Positions 51,728-58,652 of a stretch of 64,000 bases of DNA are shown piece by piece (position 1 is the first letter of the stretch; every line of letters begins with the position of its first letter). The stretch is from NCBI RefSeq assembly GCF_900100875.1, contig NZ_FNKQ01000001.1:186001-250000 (forward strand), given 5' to 3'. The notes under the pieces were generated by a model. It was not told the DNA's origin. It saw only the letters and a program-made list of their open reading frames with translations, and ran no database searches. The stretch is from Halopelagius longus. GTDB taxonomy: Archaea > Halobacteriota > Halobacteria > Halobacteriales > Haloferacaceae. The translations under genes and the position numbers were made by a program.

Positions 51728-52420
51728 TCACTCCACGTCCGCCGTGTCGCTCCGCCGGTAGCGGTTGACGCGGCGGTAGCCCTGAATCGCGCCGCCGGGT
51801 CCGAGTTCGAGTTCGTAACTGCCGAGGATGTCTTGGGAGTCGGGCACCGCCGGACGCTCTATCAGGTCGGCCACGACCAACCAGCCGTCCTCCTCGGCTC
51901 TGATCTCGCTGATGCCGTCTAACTCCCGTCCGATGAGGTCCGAAGCGGTGGATTCGACGATTCGTCTGACTTCGACGATATCGACGGACTCCCCGCCCGT
52001 CCCCTCGGCGGCGTCTTCGAGTCCGTCCGAGTCCACCGTCTCGTCGCCCTCCCTGCCGATGTCGCTCGTCTCGGTTCCGTCTCCGGAGTCGGCGTCTGAG
52101 TCGGTGTCGGCGTCGGACTCGGCGTCGGTGTCGGATTCGGATTCGGATTCCGTTTCGGCGTTGGCGTCGGACTCGGACTCCGTTTCGGCTTCGTCTCGGG
52201 ATTCGCTTTCGCTCTCGCCGCTTCCGCTCCCGCCGTCGCTTTCGCTCCCGCTTTCGGCTTCCGTTCCGCCGTCGGCGGCTATCTCGTCGATAGTATCGTC
52301 GCTCTGTCCGTGTTGGTAACAGAAGTCGCCGTCGCCGGCGGTTCGGGAACACCGTTCGCCGTCCCGGGTGAGAGCGATGCATTGCTCCGTCTCGTCGCTC
52401 GTCGCTGGGGCGTTGGCCAT
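51728..52420 (-). CDS. gvpO: gas vesicle protein GvpO with zinc-motif N-terminus
   Basis: 230 aa. The conserved C-terminal half (VEVRRIVESTASDLIGRELDGISEI, GWLVVADLIERPAVPDSQDILGSYEL) is GvpO, one of the proteins needed for vesicle formation. The N-terminus carries Cys14, Cys24, Cys34 and His37, a C-x9-C-x9-C-x2-H pattern that probably binds zinc. Between them lies a Ser/Glu/Asp-rich linker of about 100 residues. Overall it is about 1.5-2 times the usual size. Three bases separate it from gvpN. Confidence 0.88.
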   Translation of the reverse strand: MANAPATSDETEQCIALTRDGERCSRTAGDGDFCYQHGQSDDTIDEIAADGGTEAESGSESDGGSGSGESESESRDEAETESESDANAETESESESDTDAESDADTDSDADSGDGTETSDIGREGDETVDSDGLEDAAEGTGGESVDIVEVRRIVESTASDLIGRELDGISEIRAEEDGWLVVADLIERPAVPDSQDILGSYELELGPGGAIQGYRRVNRYRRSDTADVE

Positions 52421-52424
52421 ACTG

Positions 52425-53441
52425 TCATATTCCTCCCACGATGGATTGAATCTGGCCCCTAATCTCCTCGACTTCCTCCCGCGAAGATACCTTCGAAGCG
52501 AGAACGTCCGTGCAGATGTCCACGAGGATGTCGTCCTCCGGCGGGAACGCAGACAGTCCGCGCGCGGCCATGATGGCGGCCCGCGTGCCGACGGTGATGT
52601 CCATCTCCTCGCGGAGGCCGCGGACGATGGTGACGATTTTCTCGATGCTCTCGCGGTCGAGTTCGTCGACTTCCGAATCGACGATTTCGACCTCCGTCTC
52701 CTTGCCGTAGAAGCCCATGTGGATGCCGACGAGTCGGTCCAGAAGCGCGTCCTGGGGGCGGTGGACGCCGGCGTACTCGACGGAGTTCGAGGTGAGCACC
52801 GTCCTGAACTCCGGGTGGACCTCGACGGTTCGGTCGGCCCCGCGACCGGTCGAGTACTCCAGGAGGCCCTCCTCGAACGCCGACAGCAGGACGTTGTTCG
52901 CGGCGGGTTTCGAGCGGGAGAACTCGTTGTAGATGAGCGTCGCGCCCTCCCGCGCCGCGACCGAAAGCGGGTTGTCCACCCAACGGTCGCGGGTGATAGA
53001 GGTCTTCTTCACCACGTCCCTGACGTACTGGTCGCGTTCGGTGTACTGCTCTTTGCCCGCGTGTTCGCCGACGAGCGCGGCGGTATCGACCGCGTCGTCG
53101 CCCTCTATCCAGACGATGGGGCGTCCGCGCGCCACCGCCGCTTGGACGGCCATCGTCGTCTTCCCGCATCCGGTCGGTCCGACGAGGTGAACGGGCTGTT
53201 CGGCCGCCCACCAGTTGTTGATGCGCTCGACGAGCGCCTGCGTCTCGTCGGTTTCGACGAACGGCTCGAACCGTTTGGCGACCTCCTCGGCCGACAGGGG
53301 TCCCTCGTCGCCGCTTTCGTCCACCTCGGACCGGTGTCGGTCGAGGTTCTTCTCCTCCTTGCTTCGGCGCTGTGTCTCTTCGTTGTCGGACCGCACGCGG
53401 AGGCCGCGTACCGTCCGGTTGTGTTCGGAGCCGTCGGTCAT
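52425..53441 (-). CDS. gvpN: gas vesicle AAA ATPase GvpN
   Basis: 338 aa MoxR-type AAA protein. An extended polar N-terminus (about 50 residues) precedes Walker A GPTGCGKTT at 88-96 and Walker B region TLIYNEFSRSKP, then sensor elements in LTSNSVEYAG. GvpN aids vesicle growth but is not essential in Halobacterium salinarum. It follows gvpA by eight bases, so there is no room for gvpC. Confidence 0.93.
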   Translation of the reverse strand: MTDGSEHNRTVRGLRVRSDNEETQRRSKEEKNLDRHRSEVDESGDEGPLSAEEVAKRFEPFVETDETQALVERINNWWAAEQPVHLVGPTGCGKTTMAVQAAVARGRPIVWIEGDDAVDTAALVGEHAGKEQYTERDQYVRDVVKKTSITRDRWVDNPLSVAAREGATLIYNEFSRSKPAANNVLLSAFEEGLLEYSTGRGADRTVEVHPEFRTVLTSNSVEYAGVHRPQDALLDRLVGIHMGFYGKETEVEIVDSEVDELDRESIEKIVTIVRGLREEMDITVGTRAAIMAARGLSAFPPEDDILVDICTDVLASKVSSREEVEEIRGQIQSIVGGI

Positions 53442-53449
53442 TCAGTCGA

Positions 53450-53716
53450 TTACTGCGTCTGTGCAGGTTCGGTTTCGACTTCTATCTCCTCCAGTTCGTC
53501 GATATCGCCCGAGGCGCTCGCCTGTTCGATTTTCGCGATCTCCTCCGCGTAGTGGAGGAAGGTGTCGACCGACGCGACGACGACGCGCGCCTCGACGGTG
53601 AGGAGTTCGATACCGACGACGGAGATTCGGGCCCAGACGTCGATGACGACGCCTTTGTCGAGAACCCGGTCGAGGACTTCCGCGAGACTTGATGAGTTGG
53701 GTGTTCGTTGTGCCAT
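53450..53716 (-). CDS. gvpA: major gas vesicle protein GvpA
   Basis: 88 aa, the hydrophobic shell subunit. [38 protein letters not shown] is near-canonical; the C-terminal helix AEEIAKIEQ is followed by a short acidic tail. Polymerises into the rib-like wall that excludes water. First gene of the minus-strand arm. A TTCTATG-like box at about 53780-53788 on the minus strand is a possible promoter. Confidence 0.97.
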
Positions 53717-53963: not shown

Positions 53964-54590
53964 ATGAGCGAAGAGAACCTGTACGTTTACGGAGCCATCG
54001 ACGCAGAGGACCTCGACTTAGAGATATCCGGGGTCGGAGGGGCCGAGCGAGTGTACACGGTCACCCACAAGACCGTCTCGGCTATCGTCTCCGACATCGA
54101 CACGACGGACCCCGAACGGACCGACGAGAACGTACAGGCGCACGACGAAGTGCTACGGACGGTACTGGAACACGGCGACGGCCGGACGGTCGTTCCCATG
54201 CAGTTCGGCATGGCGTTCAAAGACGCGCGAACGCTGAAGAACGTCCTCCGGGGCGCGCGCCCGGCGTTCAAGCGCGCGCTCAACGACGTCGAGGGAATGG
54301 TCGAACTGGGCGTGAAAGTCGTCTCCGAGGAGGACACGGACCTCGACGAGAGCACCGTCGAAGAAGCGGCAGAACGCCTCACGGAGGCCAGCATCAACGA
54401 AGTCGAGAACGGCCAGTTCAGCGACCGACTGCTGCTCAACCGGTCGTATCTGGTCGAGCGCGACAAGCAGGACGAGTTCGGCGAAGCGGTGGACGAACTC
54501 GAAGCCGAACTCGGCGACGTGCTGGTGCAGTACACCGGTCCGTGGGCCCCCTACAACTTCGTCGACATCCACGTCGGCGTCGATAGATAA
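53964..54590 (+). CDS. gvpF: gas vesicle protein GvpF
   Basis: 208 aa. LYVYGAIDAEDL and the closing GPWAPYNFVDIHVG mark the GvpF/GvpL family, small shell-associated proteins that contact GvpA during nucleation. In haloarchaea GvpF is essential. Starts the plus-strand arm; four bases separate it from gvpG. Confidence 0.95.
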   Translation: MSEENLYVYGAIDAEDLDLEISGVGGAERVYTVTHKTVSAIVSDIDTTDPERTDENVQAHDEVLRTVLEHGDGRTVVPMQFGMAFKDARTLKNVLRGARPAFKRALNDVEGMVELGVKVVSEEDTDLDESTVEEAAERLTEASINEVENGQFSDRLLLNRSYLVERDKQDEFGEAVDELEAELGDVLVQYTGPWAPYNFVDIHVGVDR

Positions 54591-54593
54591 GCC

Positions 54594-54848
54594 ATGTTCC
54601 TCCTTGACGACATACTCGTACGGCCGTTTATCTCGCTCCTCGACGTCCTCCACCAGTTGGCGCTCGAAGAGATGTACGACATCGAAGCGCTGCAGGACGA
54701 ACTGAAGGAGAACCAACTGCTGTACGAACTGGGCGAACGGTCCCAGGCGGAGTACGAGCGTCGGAAGGAGGAACTTGAAGCGGAACTGGAACTCGCCGAG
54801 GAGGTGCGCGAGCAACTGTCCGGCGGCAAGGTAGAGGTGAAACGCTAA
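54594..54848 (+). CDS. gvpG: gas vesicle protein GvpG
   Basis: 84 aa highly helical, charged protein (ELKENQLLYELGERSQAEYERRKEELEAELELAEEV), as usual for GvpG, with a conserved FLLDDILVRPFISLLDVLHQLA opening. Essential for vesicle formation in H. salinarum. Its stop overlaps the gvpH start by one base (TAATG). Confidence 0.93.
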   Translation: MFLLDDILVRPFISLLDVLHQLALEEMYDIEALQDELKENQLLYELGERSQAEYERRKEELEAELELAEEVREQLSGGKVEVKR

Positions 54849-55372
54849 TGCACGACTCAAACGACGACGACGAGAACCGACCTAACGACCGGGACGGCGT
54901 GTCGCTCGGTGCGGGACTACGGGCGCTGACGGGCCTGCTGTCTTCGCTCCGAAAGCGCAACCGAAACAGCGGTTCGGGCCTGTTCGACACCGACCGCTCG
55001 TCCGTCGAGTACCGGTACTCCGTCGAGACGGGACTCGGCGACAGGCCGGAGCACGACCGGCCGACGCGCGACGGGCCGAGACGCACGCCGCGGAAGGAGC
55101 GACCACGGACGAAGCGGCGTACGAACGCCGACCTCCCGTCTGCGGTCAGTCACGAGGAGGACGTGGCCATCGTCACCGTGGACCTCCGCGACTTCGACCC
55201 CGACGACGTGACGGTCGGACTCGACGACGACGAACTGGTCGTCGCAGTCGACGGTAGTCAGGTCGACAGGGTCCCCGTGGACGTTCCGCCGGAGCGAAAC
55301 ACGACCGCGCGACTCAACAACGGCGTCCTGCAGGTCCGAATCGAACCCGAGGAGGGGAGGACCGATGAGTGA
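54848..55372 (+). CDS. gvpH: gas vesicle protein GvpH (Hsp20-like)
   Basis: 174 aa. An Arg/Lys-rich variable region precedes an alpha-crystallin-type strand set (DVAIVTVDLRDFDPDDVTVGL ... VPVDVPPERNTTARLNNGVLQVRIEPEE). GvpH acts as an Hsp20-like chaperone for other Gvp proteins and is not strictly essential. Overlaps gvpI by eight bases. Confidence 0.9.
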   Translation: MHDSNDDDENRPNDRDGVSLGAGLRALTGLLSSLRKRNRNSGSGLFDTDRSSVEYRYSVETGLGDRPEHDRPTRDGPRRTPRKERPRTKRRTNADLPSAVSHEEDVAIVTVDLRDFDPDDVTVGLDDDELVVAVDGSQVDRVPVDVPPERNTTARLNNGVLQVRIEPEEGRTDE

Positions 55373-56504
55373 CGACCTCGACGAACTCCTCAGTCGAACG
55401 GAAGAGGAGATGGCGAAGCTCGAGGAGTCGGTGGACGAGGGGAACGTCGAGGACGCCCTCCAGACTCTCCAGCGACTGGTTCACACGGCGGACGAACTCG
55501 AAGACGTCCTCGACTCGGTGGACGTGAGCGAACTCCCGGACGCCGTGGACGCAGGCGAACTCGCGAAGGCGGTCGAAGTCGGCGAGATACCCGACGCACT
55601 TCGGGACGGCGACGTGGGGGACGCCGTCGACTACCGGCAACTCCTCCGTGCGGTCGAACTCCGGAAGATGCTCGGCGCGACCGACGTCCGCCAACTCTGG
55701 AAGCAGTCGCGGGACTCCGAGATGTTCGGAGGCGAGGACTCCGGCCTACTCGATTCGGGCGGCGAGGACTCCGGCCTCCTCGGCGGGTCCGACGACGGGA
55801 ACGCGGACGCCGAGAGGAACGAAGAGGACGACGTCATCGCTGAACTCGAAGCGTTAATCGACGACGACGCCGAAGACGACGATTCGCTGGTCGAAAGCGC
55901 CGCGGACGCCATCTCCGGCGACGACGCCGAAGACGACGACTCGCTGGTCGAAAGCGCCGCGGACACCCTCACCGGCGACGATTCCGACGAGTCCGCCGAC
56001 GCCGACGACGGGATTCTCGCCGGAGACGACGGCGACGGACTGGTCGGCGGAGACGACGGCGGATTGATGGGCGGCGACGGCAGTGGACTCGGCGACTACG
56101 ACCCGGAGGCCGTCCAGATAGGGATTCAGTCGAAGGCGATGGAGGCCGTAGACGAGTTCCGCGCGGGGATGCTGGAGGCCCACGAGAAACTGAAGAAGGT
56201 CTACGAGAAGAACCAAGAGCGCACCAGCAGTCAGAGTAAGAAAACCTCCTCGCGGAACCCCACCGCGGTCCGGACGATACAGAACGACCGCGGCGACATC
56301 GGGCACGCGACGCACTACTCGACGATTCCGCGGGAGACGCGCTACTCGACGGCCCCGAACCGCAAGCGCATCTACGGCTCCCGGTTCGAACAGGAGGCGC
56401 GCAAGTCGCAATCGGAGGCGGAAGCGAAAGCGGAGACGAAGACGGAGACGGAACCGAAGGCAGAGACGAAGACGGAACCGGAAAGGGGTGAGTCCGATGG
56501 TTGA
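55365..56504 (+). CDS. gvpI: oversized GvpI-position protein
   Basis: 379 aa in the gvpI position between gvpH and gvpJ; known GvpI proteins are about 140. Residues 1-125 form an extra acidic helical domain (ELLSRTEEEMAKLEESV; VDVSELPDAVD). Residues about 125-240 are acidic, including two identical-register 19-residue repeats, DDAEDDDSLVESAAD (167-185 and 186-204). Residues about 265-345 (NPTAVRTIQNDRGDIGHATHYSTIP) are the basic part that I take as the GvpI core. A Lys/Glu/Thr repeat tail ends it. GvpI identity rests on position and the basic core. Confidence 0.7.
   Translation: MSDDLDELLSRTEEEMAKLEESVDEGNVEDALQTLQRLVHTADELEDVLDSVDVSELPDAVDAGELAKAVEVGEIPDALRDGDVGDAVDYRQLLRAVELRKMLGATDVRQLWKQSRDSEMFGGEDSGLLDSGGEDSGLLGGSDDGNADAERNEEDDVIAELEALIDDDAEDDDSLVESAADAISGDDAEDDDSLVESAADTLTGDDSDESADADDGILAGDDGDGLVGGDDGGLMGGDGSGLGDYDPEAVQIGIQSKAMEAVDEFRAGMLEAHEKLKKVYEKNQERTSSQSKKTSSRNPTAVRTIQNDRGDIGHATHYSTIPRETRYSTAPNRKRIYGSRFEQEARKSQSEAEAKAETKTETEPKAETKTEPERGESDG
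55863..55976 (+). repeat. 57-base tandem repeat inside gvpI
   Basis: Two units, 55863-55919 and 55920-55976, nearly identical in DNA, each coding for DDAEDDDSLVESAAD plus four residues. A recent duplication is implied by synonymous conservation. Confidence 0.85.
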
Positions 56505-57192
56505 GCAACCGTCCCGCCAGAAGACCGACCTCGCGGAGATGGTCGAGATGCTCCTGGACAAAGGCGTCGTCATAAACGCCGACATCGTCGTCTCCATCGG
56601 CGACACGGAACTCCTCGGCGTGAAGGTGCGCGCGGCCATCGCCTCCTTCGAGACGGCCGCGGAGTACGGACTGGAGTTCCCCGAGGGGACCGACATGGAC
56701 CGCGTGGAGGCCGCCGCGAAAGGCGAACGCCGCGAGGGCCTCTCCGAGGCGGAAGCGCCCGTAACGGTGACCGAGTCCTCGGAGGAGGAACTGGACGCGG
56801 CGGAGGCCCGGAGGGACGACGACGAAGACGACGAGTCCGACGAGGCGGAGTTTCTGACCGCGAAGACGCCCGTCACCAGCCAAACTCCCGCCAGCGGTCA
56901 GACCCGGACGTCGGCGGAGACGCCCGCGACGGGTGAGACGCCGGCGTCGCCGGACGACGAGGCGGTGTCGGACGAAGGCGAACCCGATTCCGAAGACGAA
57001 TCCGACGCCGAAAGCGAATCCGAGGCCGACGACGACGACGCCGACGACGAACCCGAAGTCGAGTCGGGTGACGCCGACGGTGACGAGGCGGACGAGGACT
57101 CCGTCACCGACGACGCGGAGGGCGACGACGCCGACGAATCGGCCGACGAAGACACGTCCTCGGAGGACGAAGGAGACGGTGACGAAGGATGA
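56497..57192 (+). CDS. gvpJ: gas vesicle protein GvpJ with long acidic tail
   Basis: 231 aa. Residues 10-75 are GvpA-like ([41 protein letters not shown]), as GvpJ should be. The rest is a Glu/Asp/Ser-rich disordered tail with Thr-Pro repeats ([10 protein letters not shown]) and an extremely acidic end. Typical GvpJ is about 110-115 aa. Overlaps gvpI by eight bases and gvpK by four. Confidence 0.93.
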
Positions 57193-57518
57193 CCACGATA
57201 GAGATAGACGACGAGAACGCCGGGACCGGGCTGGTGGCGTTAGTCGTCACCGTGGTCGAACTGCTCGTGGAGGCGTTGGAACGCGAGGCGGTCCGGCGCA
57301 TGGAGTCGGGACACCTCACAGACGAGGAGATAGAGCGCCTCGGTCGGCAGTTGGCCGCAATCGAGTCCGAAATCGACTCGCTCAAAGAGCAGGAGGGAAT
57401 CGAGGAACCGGTCGAGGACCTGCGGGGCGACTTGGACGGACTGGTCGAAGACGCCATCCGGCAGGTCGAAGACACCGAGTGGGTGAAGCCCGCGTCGGAG
57501 GTCGAACGCGATGAGTGA
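57189..57518 (+). CDS. gvpK: gas vesicle protein GvpK
   Basis: 109 aa. [39 protein letters not shown] is the GvpK core, followed by a coiled-coil-like [11 protein letters not shown]. Needed for vesicle formation in haloarchaea. Overlaps gvpJ and gvpL by a few bases, so the arm is translated as one unit. Confidence 0.95.
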
Positions 57519-58359
57519 CGCCGCCGACGCCTCGTCCGCCGAGTTCGACGAGGGGCGGTACCTCTACTGCGTCGTCCGGGCCGACGACGCGGACGCCGAA
57601 TTCGACGTCGAAGGCATCGAGGACGAACCCGTCCGCGTCCTGACCGAAGGCGACGTCGGCGCGGTGGTCCATCGCTGCGAATCGCTGTACGACAGCGACG
57701 ACCCGACGACGCTGAAACGCTGGCTGTTGGCCCACCAGCGAGTGACCGACGCCGCCGCGGACGCCTTCGGCACCCCGCTTCCCGTCCGCTTCGACACGGT
57801 GTTGACGGGCGACGACGACACCGTGCGGGAGTGGCTTCGGGAGTCCGCCGACGGCCTCCGGGACGCCCTCGACGCTCTCGCCGGACGGCGCGAGTACCGC
57901 ATCGAAGTGCGCCGCAACGAGGACACCCTCGCCGACCGCCTCGCGGAGACGGACGACCGCCTCGGCGAACTCCGGGAGAAGAAGGAGGAGGCCGGCGAAG
58001 GGACCGGGTTCCTCGTCGGGAAGCAGTACGAACAGCGGTTGGAGGACCTCCTGCGCGAACACCGCGAGAACGAGGCCGAGGCCGTCGCGGAGGAACTGGC
58101 CCGGTACGCCGAACGGGTCCAACGGTTGGGCGAGAACCGAAGCGCGTCGCTCGTCGGCGCGCAACCGGACGACGACGACGCGACGAGTTCCGTCCGATTC
58201 GCCGTGTTGGCCCCCGTGGACAACGAGGACGACATCGGCGAGATACTGGACGACGTGGCCGCGGAGGACGGCGTCGAGGTGCGGTTCAGCGGTCCGTGGC
58301 CGCCGTACTCCTTCGCGCCGGAACTCGACGTGGGTGCGACCGAGGAGGGGTCGCCGTGA
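57511..58359 (+). CDS. gvpL: gas vesicle protein GvpL
   Basis: 282 aa, paralogue of Gvp[29 protein letters not shown], then a long helical middle ([21 protein letters not shown]) and the [13 protein letters not shown] ending. GvpL is essential and interacts with GvpF, J and M. GTGA overlap with gvpM. Confidence 0.95.
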
Positions 58360-58652
58360 AACCGAGTAAGGGCGACCAACACGCGGTCGTCGATCTAGTC
58401 GATATGCTCCTCCACAAGGGGGCCGTCGTCGAGGCGGACGTGCTCATCACCGTCGCGGACATCCCCCTCGTGGGGTTGAAACTCCGCGCCGCCCTCGCGG
58501 GCATGGCGACGATGCGGGAGTACGGCATGTTCGAGGAGTGGGACGAGATACAGCGAGAACTGAGTCGGGAGGAGGTAGCCCGACACCCCATGCGGTCTCG
58601 ACTCACCGCGCCGACCGACGGGAAGAAGAAATCGGATGCGGACGAATCGTAG
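58356..58652 (+). CDS. gvpM: gas vesicle protein GvpM
   Basis: 98 aa from GTG. VVDLVDMLLHKGAVVEADVLITVADIPLVGLKLRAALAGM is a GvpA-related core, then a polar basic tail. Essential accessory protein. Its end is six bases from the convergent acidic protein, marking the edge of the classical cluster. Confidence 0.95.
   Translation: MKPSKGDQHAVVDLVDMLLHKGAVVEADVLITVADIPLVGLKLRAALAGMATMREYGMFEEWDEIQRELSREEVARHPMRSRLTAPTDGKKKSDADES

Follow-up and report, generated by a model that had tools for sequence, protein, structure and literature searches.

A long-form GvpI from a distinct haloarchaeal gas-vesicle lineage that lacks gvpC

We analyze a gas-vesicle (gvp) gene cluster in the window, that is, the whole 64,000-nucleotide stretch of Halopelagius longus DNA under study, with emphasis on the gene between gvpH and gvpJ. 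The gvp set around this gene is complete and compact, with gvpO, gvpN and gvpA on the leftward side and gvpF through gvpM (F, G, H, I, J, K, L, M) on the rightward side (Table 1). The gene is read in a single frame from an ATG at 55365 to a TGA at 56502-56504 with no internal stops, is present in one copy in the source genome, and overlaps by 8 bases both gvpH (stop at 55370-55372) and gvpJ (ATG at 56497), which is usual for genes of one operon. The cluster leaves no space for gvpC, as only 8 bp separate the gvpA stop from the gvpN start, and a search of the whole source genome for the Halo_GVPC repeat (PF05465) returned no matches.

Table 1. Coordinates of the gvp cluster features in the window and of glycine-zipper family members in the window and in other loci
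Feature	Position	Strand	Evidence or remark
gvpO, acidic N-terminal extension	51728..52420	-	PF05800, NF045806
gvpN, AAA ATPase	52425..53441	-	TIGR02640 329 bits; census; GvpN tree
gvpA, acidic C-terminal tail ([20 protein letters not shown]) typical of gvpC-less clusters	53450..53716	-	
gvpF	53964..54590	+	PF06386
gvpG	54594..54848	+	PF05120, NF045779
gvpH, Hsp20-like	54848..55372	+	PF05455
gvpI, long form, 379 aa	55365..56504	+	intact ORF between gvpH and gvpJ; C-terminal part homologous to short GvpI
GvpI N-terminal domain, residues 1-122	55365..55730	+	AlphaFold2; lag-9 autocorrelation; homologs in 152/392 genomes
seven 9-residue units, residues 52-114	55518..55706	+	profile autocorrelation
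acidic, mostly disordered linker, residues 126-244	55740..56096	+	pLDDT; pI 4.05
two tandem 57-base linker units	55859..55972	+	repeat search, 91% identical
GvpI-type C-terminal part, residues 246-345	56100..56399	+	alignments; HMM match common to short GvpI
gvpJ, acidic C-terminal extension	56497..57192	+	NF046090; extension longer than in gvpC-containing clusters
gvpK	57189..57518	+	cluster HMM built here, also matching other gvp clusters
gvpL	57511..58359	+	cluster HMM built here, also matching other gvp clusters
gvpM (start inferred)	58356..58652	+	cluster HMM built here
glycine-zipper family ORF, 390 aa	58659-59831	-	
glycine-zipper member, L120	8357-8830		
glycine-zipper member, L121	8381-8845		
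glycine-zipper member, L125	6702-7226		
glycine-zipper member, L137	7397-7897		
glycine-zipper member, L147	11715-12149		
glycine-zipper member, L164	4027-4437		
glycine-zipper members, L175	7171-7674, 10870-11310		

The product is securely identified as a long-form GvpI. Its gene occupies the same gvpH-gvpJ position as that of the GvpI of Halobacterium salinarum (15.8 kDa, pI about 10.8), which is homologous to its C-terminal part and has the same order of motifs. Short GvpI ORFs match this part directly (E-values from 1e-7 to 1e-3), and an HMM common to long and short GvpI scores 60-130 bits; a Pfam search with the full-length protein found no families, the Halo_GVPC repeat included. Unlike the window protein, the Halobacterium protein has no N-terminal domain and no acidic linker and is strongly basic. 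The pI of the window GvpI is 4.06 at full length and 7.06 over residues 244-379, the latter because of an acidic tail, as against 10.4-11.0 for short GvpI; cluster-encoded long GvpI proteins lie near 4.05. As basic charge is a trait of the Halobacterium protein that all cluster-encoded long forms lack, its absence marks a subtype and does not exclude homology. An earlier note on this DNA had already recognized a GvpI from gene position and C-terminal resemblance, which our results bear out, but it had described the part behind the linker as basic, which the pI values contradict. A frameshift joining two ORFs, named there as a finding that could overturn the reading, is ruled out by the intact frame and by the same architecture in the sister species and many other genomes.

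The protein consists of three parts, of which the N-terminal domain and the disordered acidic middle with its tandem units agree with what the earlier note had proposed. AlphaFold2 predicts a confident helical hairpin at residues 2-51 (pLDDT about 92), followed at residues 54-122 by short, poorly fixed helices of moderate-to-low confidence (pLDDT only about 45-70 in the repeat region). The repeat region contains seven 9-residue units (VDVSELPDA, VDAGELAKA, VEVGEIPDA, LRDGDVGDA, VDYRQLLRA, VELRKMLGA and TDVRQLWKQ), a feature not mentioned in the earlier note. In the N-domain family profile, the autocorrelation peaks at lag 9 (z=7.0) and lag 18 (z=4.8), and neither value was reached in any of 500 column shuffles. 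A fold search of the N-domain against the PDB gave no matches below E 0.35. One PDB entry, 9e5c chain 0q (a LIM zinc-binding domain-containing protein), has an extended tandem array whose hydrophobic residues follow a similar 9-residue pattern, but we rejected it as a homolog because its best stretch had an i-Evalue of about 0.05 with high compositional bias in a low-complexity repeat.

Within the linker, pLDDT falls below 50 at residues 126-146, 185-194, 200-220 and 222-244. The two tandem units (55859-55915 and 55916-55972) are confined to this linker. The sister species (L031) has about one such unit, so the duplication in the window looks recent, and another species (L035) has independently duplicated a similar acidic segment; the linker thus tolerates changes in length. 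The C-terminal part carries the conserved signature SRNPTA...ST..P...YS......RIYG.RF, with a long, confidently predicted helix at residues 247-292 and another helix at 333-359 (AlphaFold2).

The gvpC-containing type, as found in Halobacterium and Haloferax mediterranei, is the source of what is known about archaeal gas vesicles, and the proteins that distinguish the gvpC-less type are, to our knowledge, unstudied. In Halobacterium, GvpI is a non-essential and very basic protein that forms a pair with GvpH and also binds GvpL and GvpF; it promotes the oligomerization of GvpJ, GvpK and GvpM, and its loss leads to extremely long vesicles (PMC7688916). Contact between GvpI and GvpC has been seen by split-GFP (PMC9501494), and direct contact between GvpI and GvpA was absent in a pulldown (PMC9372576). 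Clusters without gvpC are known, and the species with them listed in a review are gas-vesicle negative (PMC4390858). A large N-terminal extension of GvpI was likewise described in 2012 in Natrialba magadii (Nmag_0338) and Haloterrigena turkmenica (Htur_2370), whose clusters lack gvpC, gvpD and gvpE, in a short remark without domain analysis or census (PMC3403918). The window protein differs from these two in belonging to another family and in having its own linker duplication. We found no later analysis of N-extended GvpI in the literature, which was searched mostly outside subscription journals. The long GvpI of the window is not peculiar to its source genome but a new member of a known and barely studied form.

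The earlier note had called for a search of haloarchaea with the N-domain alone and for a comparison with clusters that retain gvpC, and both were carried out. Of 170 genomes in the family, 26 from 10 genera have the N-domain and 41 have the C-terminal part, with short GvpI genes of about 117-160 aa among the latter; Halo_GVPC occurs in 16, none of which has the N-domain. In a further genome (G166), the N-domain was found by HMM and missed by the single-sequence search. The family tally is 27 genomes with long GvpI versus 16 with gvpC, with an overlap of 0 among the 43 gvp-bearing genomes (Fisher p about 4e-12, not corrected for relatedness). In this tally, G147 is included on the strength of gvpC and gvpN hits only (gvpG matched weakly, and GvpI was not read there), and the 16 do not include G095, whose gvpC the Pfam search missed and our own HMM matched (L111). 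For the class-wide search we used a 9-sequence subset of the N-domains, since all 26 sequences together gave no conserved stretch. Across 392 genomes of the order, the N-domain is present in 152 (about 40%), covering 48 of 95 genera, and gvpC in 14, three of which (G211, G217 and G231; L177, L179 and L180) show single borderline repeats that we set aside because gvp genes are absent nearby. No genome in the family or order sample combines the N-domain with a multi-repeat gvpC. Relatives with the N-domain include Halogranum, Halogeometricum, Haladaptatus, Haloarcula, Halococcus, Halomarina, Halostagnicola, Halovivax, Halocatena and Halohasta.

The same division is seen cluster by cluster. In gvpC-containing clusters, every GvpI seen is short and basic and lacks the N-domain, so that this domain is not a general property of GvpI, and in the clusters seen here short GvpI is always accompanied by gvpC and gvpN. 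All gvpC-less clusters found have a long, acidic GvpI. The window gene is thus a GvpI ortholog in a distinct haloarchaeal gas-vesicle lineage without gvpC, and the GvpI of this lineage carries the N-domain as a rule. The earlier description of the protein as greatly enlarged holds in relation to the model organisms only; across the groups searched, long GvpI is more common than short GvpI.

Genes with both N-domain and C-terminal part also occur away from gvp clusters, among non-gas-vesicle neighbours (L046, L050, L051, L055, L101, L151, L152, L155, L156, L158, L160, L167, L171, L173 and L186), mostly in genomes that also have a gvp cluster. The C-terminal part was matched in every unlinked copy that was read except L047, where nothing reached the threshold, and weakly in L186. 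As gvpG is present in 78 of 80 tested genomes with the N-domain (the N-domain matches of the other two were among the weakest), the unlinked copies probably still serve gas vesicles, and we rejected the idea of a stand-alone or non-gas-vesicle domain on the same count and on the presence of the C-terminal part in nearly all of them.

Other proteins differ between the two cluster types as well. The GvpA tail beyond the core has a median length of 19.5 residues in gvpC-less clusters versus 6 in gvpC-containing ones, and the acidic tail of the former, noted for the window gvpA and 43 other gene copies and commonly GDLEDLxELEI-like, is absent from the latter. The C-terminal extensions of GvpJ and GvpM are also longer in gvpC-less clusters. 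Within the family, most clusters without gvpC have also lost gvpN, but it is kept despite the lack of gvpC in the window genus, in Natrialbaceae-like clusters and in G261, which rules out its loss as a universal mark of the type; the other gvpC-less clusters examined lack it. A family of small glycine-zipper proteins, with a GRxLGExLGRxLG segment, an acidic linker, and a C-terminal helix that is MSDEELQSLAxxLMDEL-like or SAP-like, occurs in or beside many clusters without gvpC but in no gvpC-containing locus examined. The window member has no matches in Pfam or NCBIfam, and the family is a candidate for an unnamed accessory Gvp. Second copies of gvpO occur in the gvp clusters of L125, L133, L139, L140 and L143 (Haladaptatus) and of L146 and L148, and a second gvpA-like gene in L125 and L133. 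The C-terminus of GvpC (L102-L115) is conserved as CxVC..YxAIT..HLxTH.M....YR, a motif resembling a small zinc-binding domain.

A tree built from the concatenated sequences of eight Gvp proteins in 64 clusters has a single branch, with support of 100, between the 16 gvpC-containing clusters and the 48 gvpC-less ones. The tree was built with a quick method that gave a long-branch warning, and the separating branch is not among the long branches flagged. The GvpN tree has the same split, with the GvpN sequences kept in gvpC-less clusters on one side and the window GvpN grouped among them. Exclusivity therefore reflects one ancient split rather than repeated replacement, and a correlation that rests on one event cannot by itself show that one protein has functionally replaced the other.

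The best overall explanation, to which we give about an even chance of being right, is that the C-terminal part docks on the GvpH/L/F complex and that the N-domain is a tethered helical-repeat adaptor that shapes the vesicle. The C-terminal part is the classical GvpI module and, by analogy with Halobacterium, most likely binds GvpH, GvpL and GvpF in the assembly complex, although it is less basic than short GvpI and may have other partners. The flexible acidic linker would tether an adaptor composed of the helical hairpin and, as far as the predicted fold goes, of short helices in the observed 9-residue repeat. This adaptor most likely contacts a second vesicle component, e.g., the acidic GvpA tail or another Gvp, and such contact would help to set vesicle length and shape. 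Long GvpI would then be a low-copy assembly factor rather than a GvpC-like coat. Expression level, the lack of homology and the single-event phylogeny all favour the adaptor over the coat; in Halobacterium, GvpI and the other gvpF-M proteins are produced at much lower levels than GvpA and GvpC (PMC4390858), and this speaks against a stoichiometric coat. What weighs against the adaptor explanation is the modest confidence of the predicted repeat region, for which no known fold was recovered, the less basic C-terminal part, and the vesicle-negative state of the gvpC-less species listed in the review (PMC4390858).

The earlier note had suggested that the N-domain might do some of the work of GvpC, and in its full form this would place the domain on the shell exterior, stabilizing or shaping the shell in place of GvpC. 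That long GvpI and gvpC did not occur together in any genome or cluster we examined is in keeping with this suggestion, as is the fact that haloarchaeal GvpC, a gas-vesicle shape factor, likewise combines helical repeats with acidic, low-complexity parts; and since GvpI binds GvpC in Halobacterium (PMC9501494), the two act in one pathway. Yet the exclusivity goes back to only one split, and the GvpC repeats are about 38 residues long as opposed to 9. GvpC also differs in ending in a Cys/His motif and in being encoded between gvpA and gvpN. A profile comparison of the N-domain with GvpC gave an hhalign probability of only 0.2-0.3%, which rules out a divergent GvpC, and the scarcity of gvpF-M products weighs against a replacement too. 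As GvpC is dispensable, none is needed, and we consider a functional replacement quite unlikely.

It is somewhat less improbable, though still doubtful, that gvpC was gained or lost once between the cluster types, with long GvpI being simply the ancestral or derived state and the N-domain serving a purpose unconnected with GvpC, such as binding to the glycine-zipper proteins or to the acidic extensions of GvpJ, GvpO or GvpA. The single branch, the matching GvpN tree, the tails of GvpA, GvpJ and GvpM that differ along the same split, and the glycine-zipper family seen only in gvpC-less loci all fit such a history, but it provides no mechanism by itself and leaves the retention of the N-domain in every gvpC-less cluster found unexplained. 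The extension could also be disordered or low-complexity sequence that is tolerated but does little, comparable to the acidic extensions of GvpJ and GvpO in this cluster. Between species, the linker does vary freely in its length and tandem units, and several Gvp proteins of the window have acidic extensions; this account fits the linker only, as the N-domain has a predicted structure and a periodicity and is conserved in several families within the class, and we regard it as highly improbable for the protein as a whole. We prefer a tethered assembly or shape adaptor as the likeliest role of the N-domain.

What is new here is the class-wide exclusivity, the 9-residue repeat of the N-domain, the restriction of the acidic GvpA tail to the gvpC-less type, the unlinked GvpI paralogs, and the glycine-zipper accessory family. 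A broader proposal is that gas vesicles of haloarchaea are shaped and strengthened by either of two systems, one being the textbook GvpC coat and the other, more widespread and independent of GvpC, consisting of long GvpI as a 9-residue helical-repeat adaptor, a GvpA whose acidic tail serves for recognition, and glycine-zipper accessory proteins; as it stands, this is unlikely. If long GvpI does control shape or strength without GvpC, it would open another route to engineering the mechanics of vesicles, with uses in ultrasound and antigen display. The function of GvpI is a long-standing question, and the domain structure described here makes it testable through domain deletion, in what is the commoner type of gas-vesicle cluster in the groups searched.
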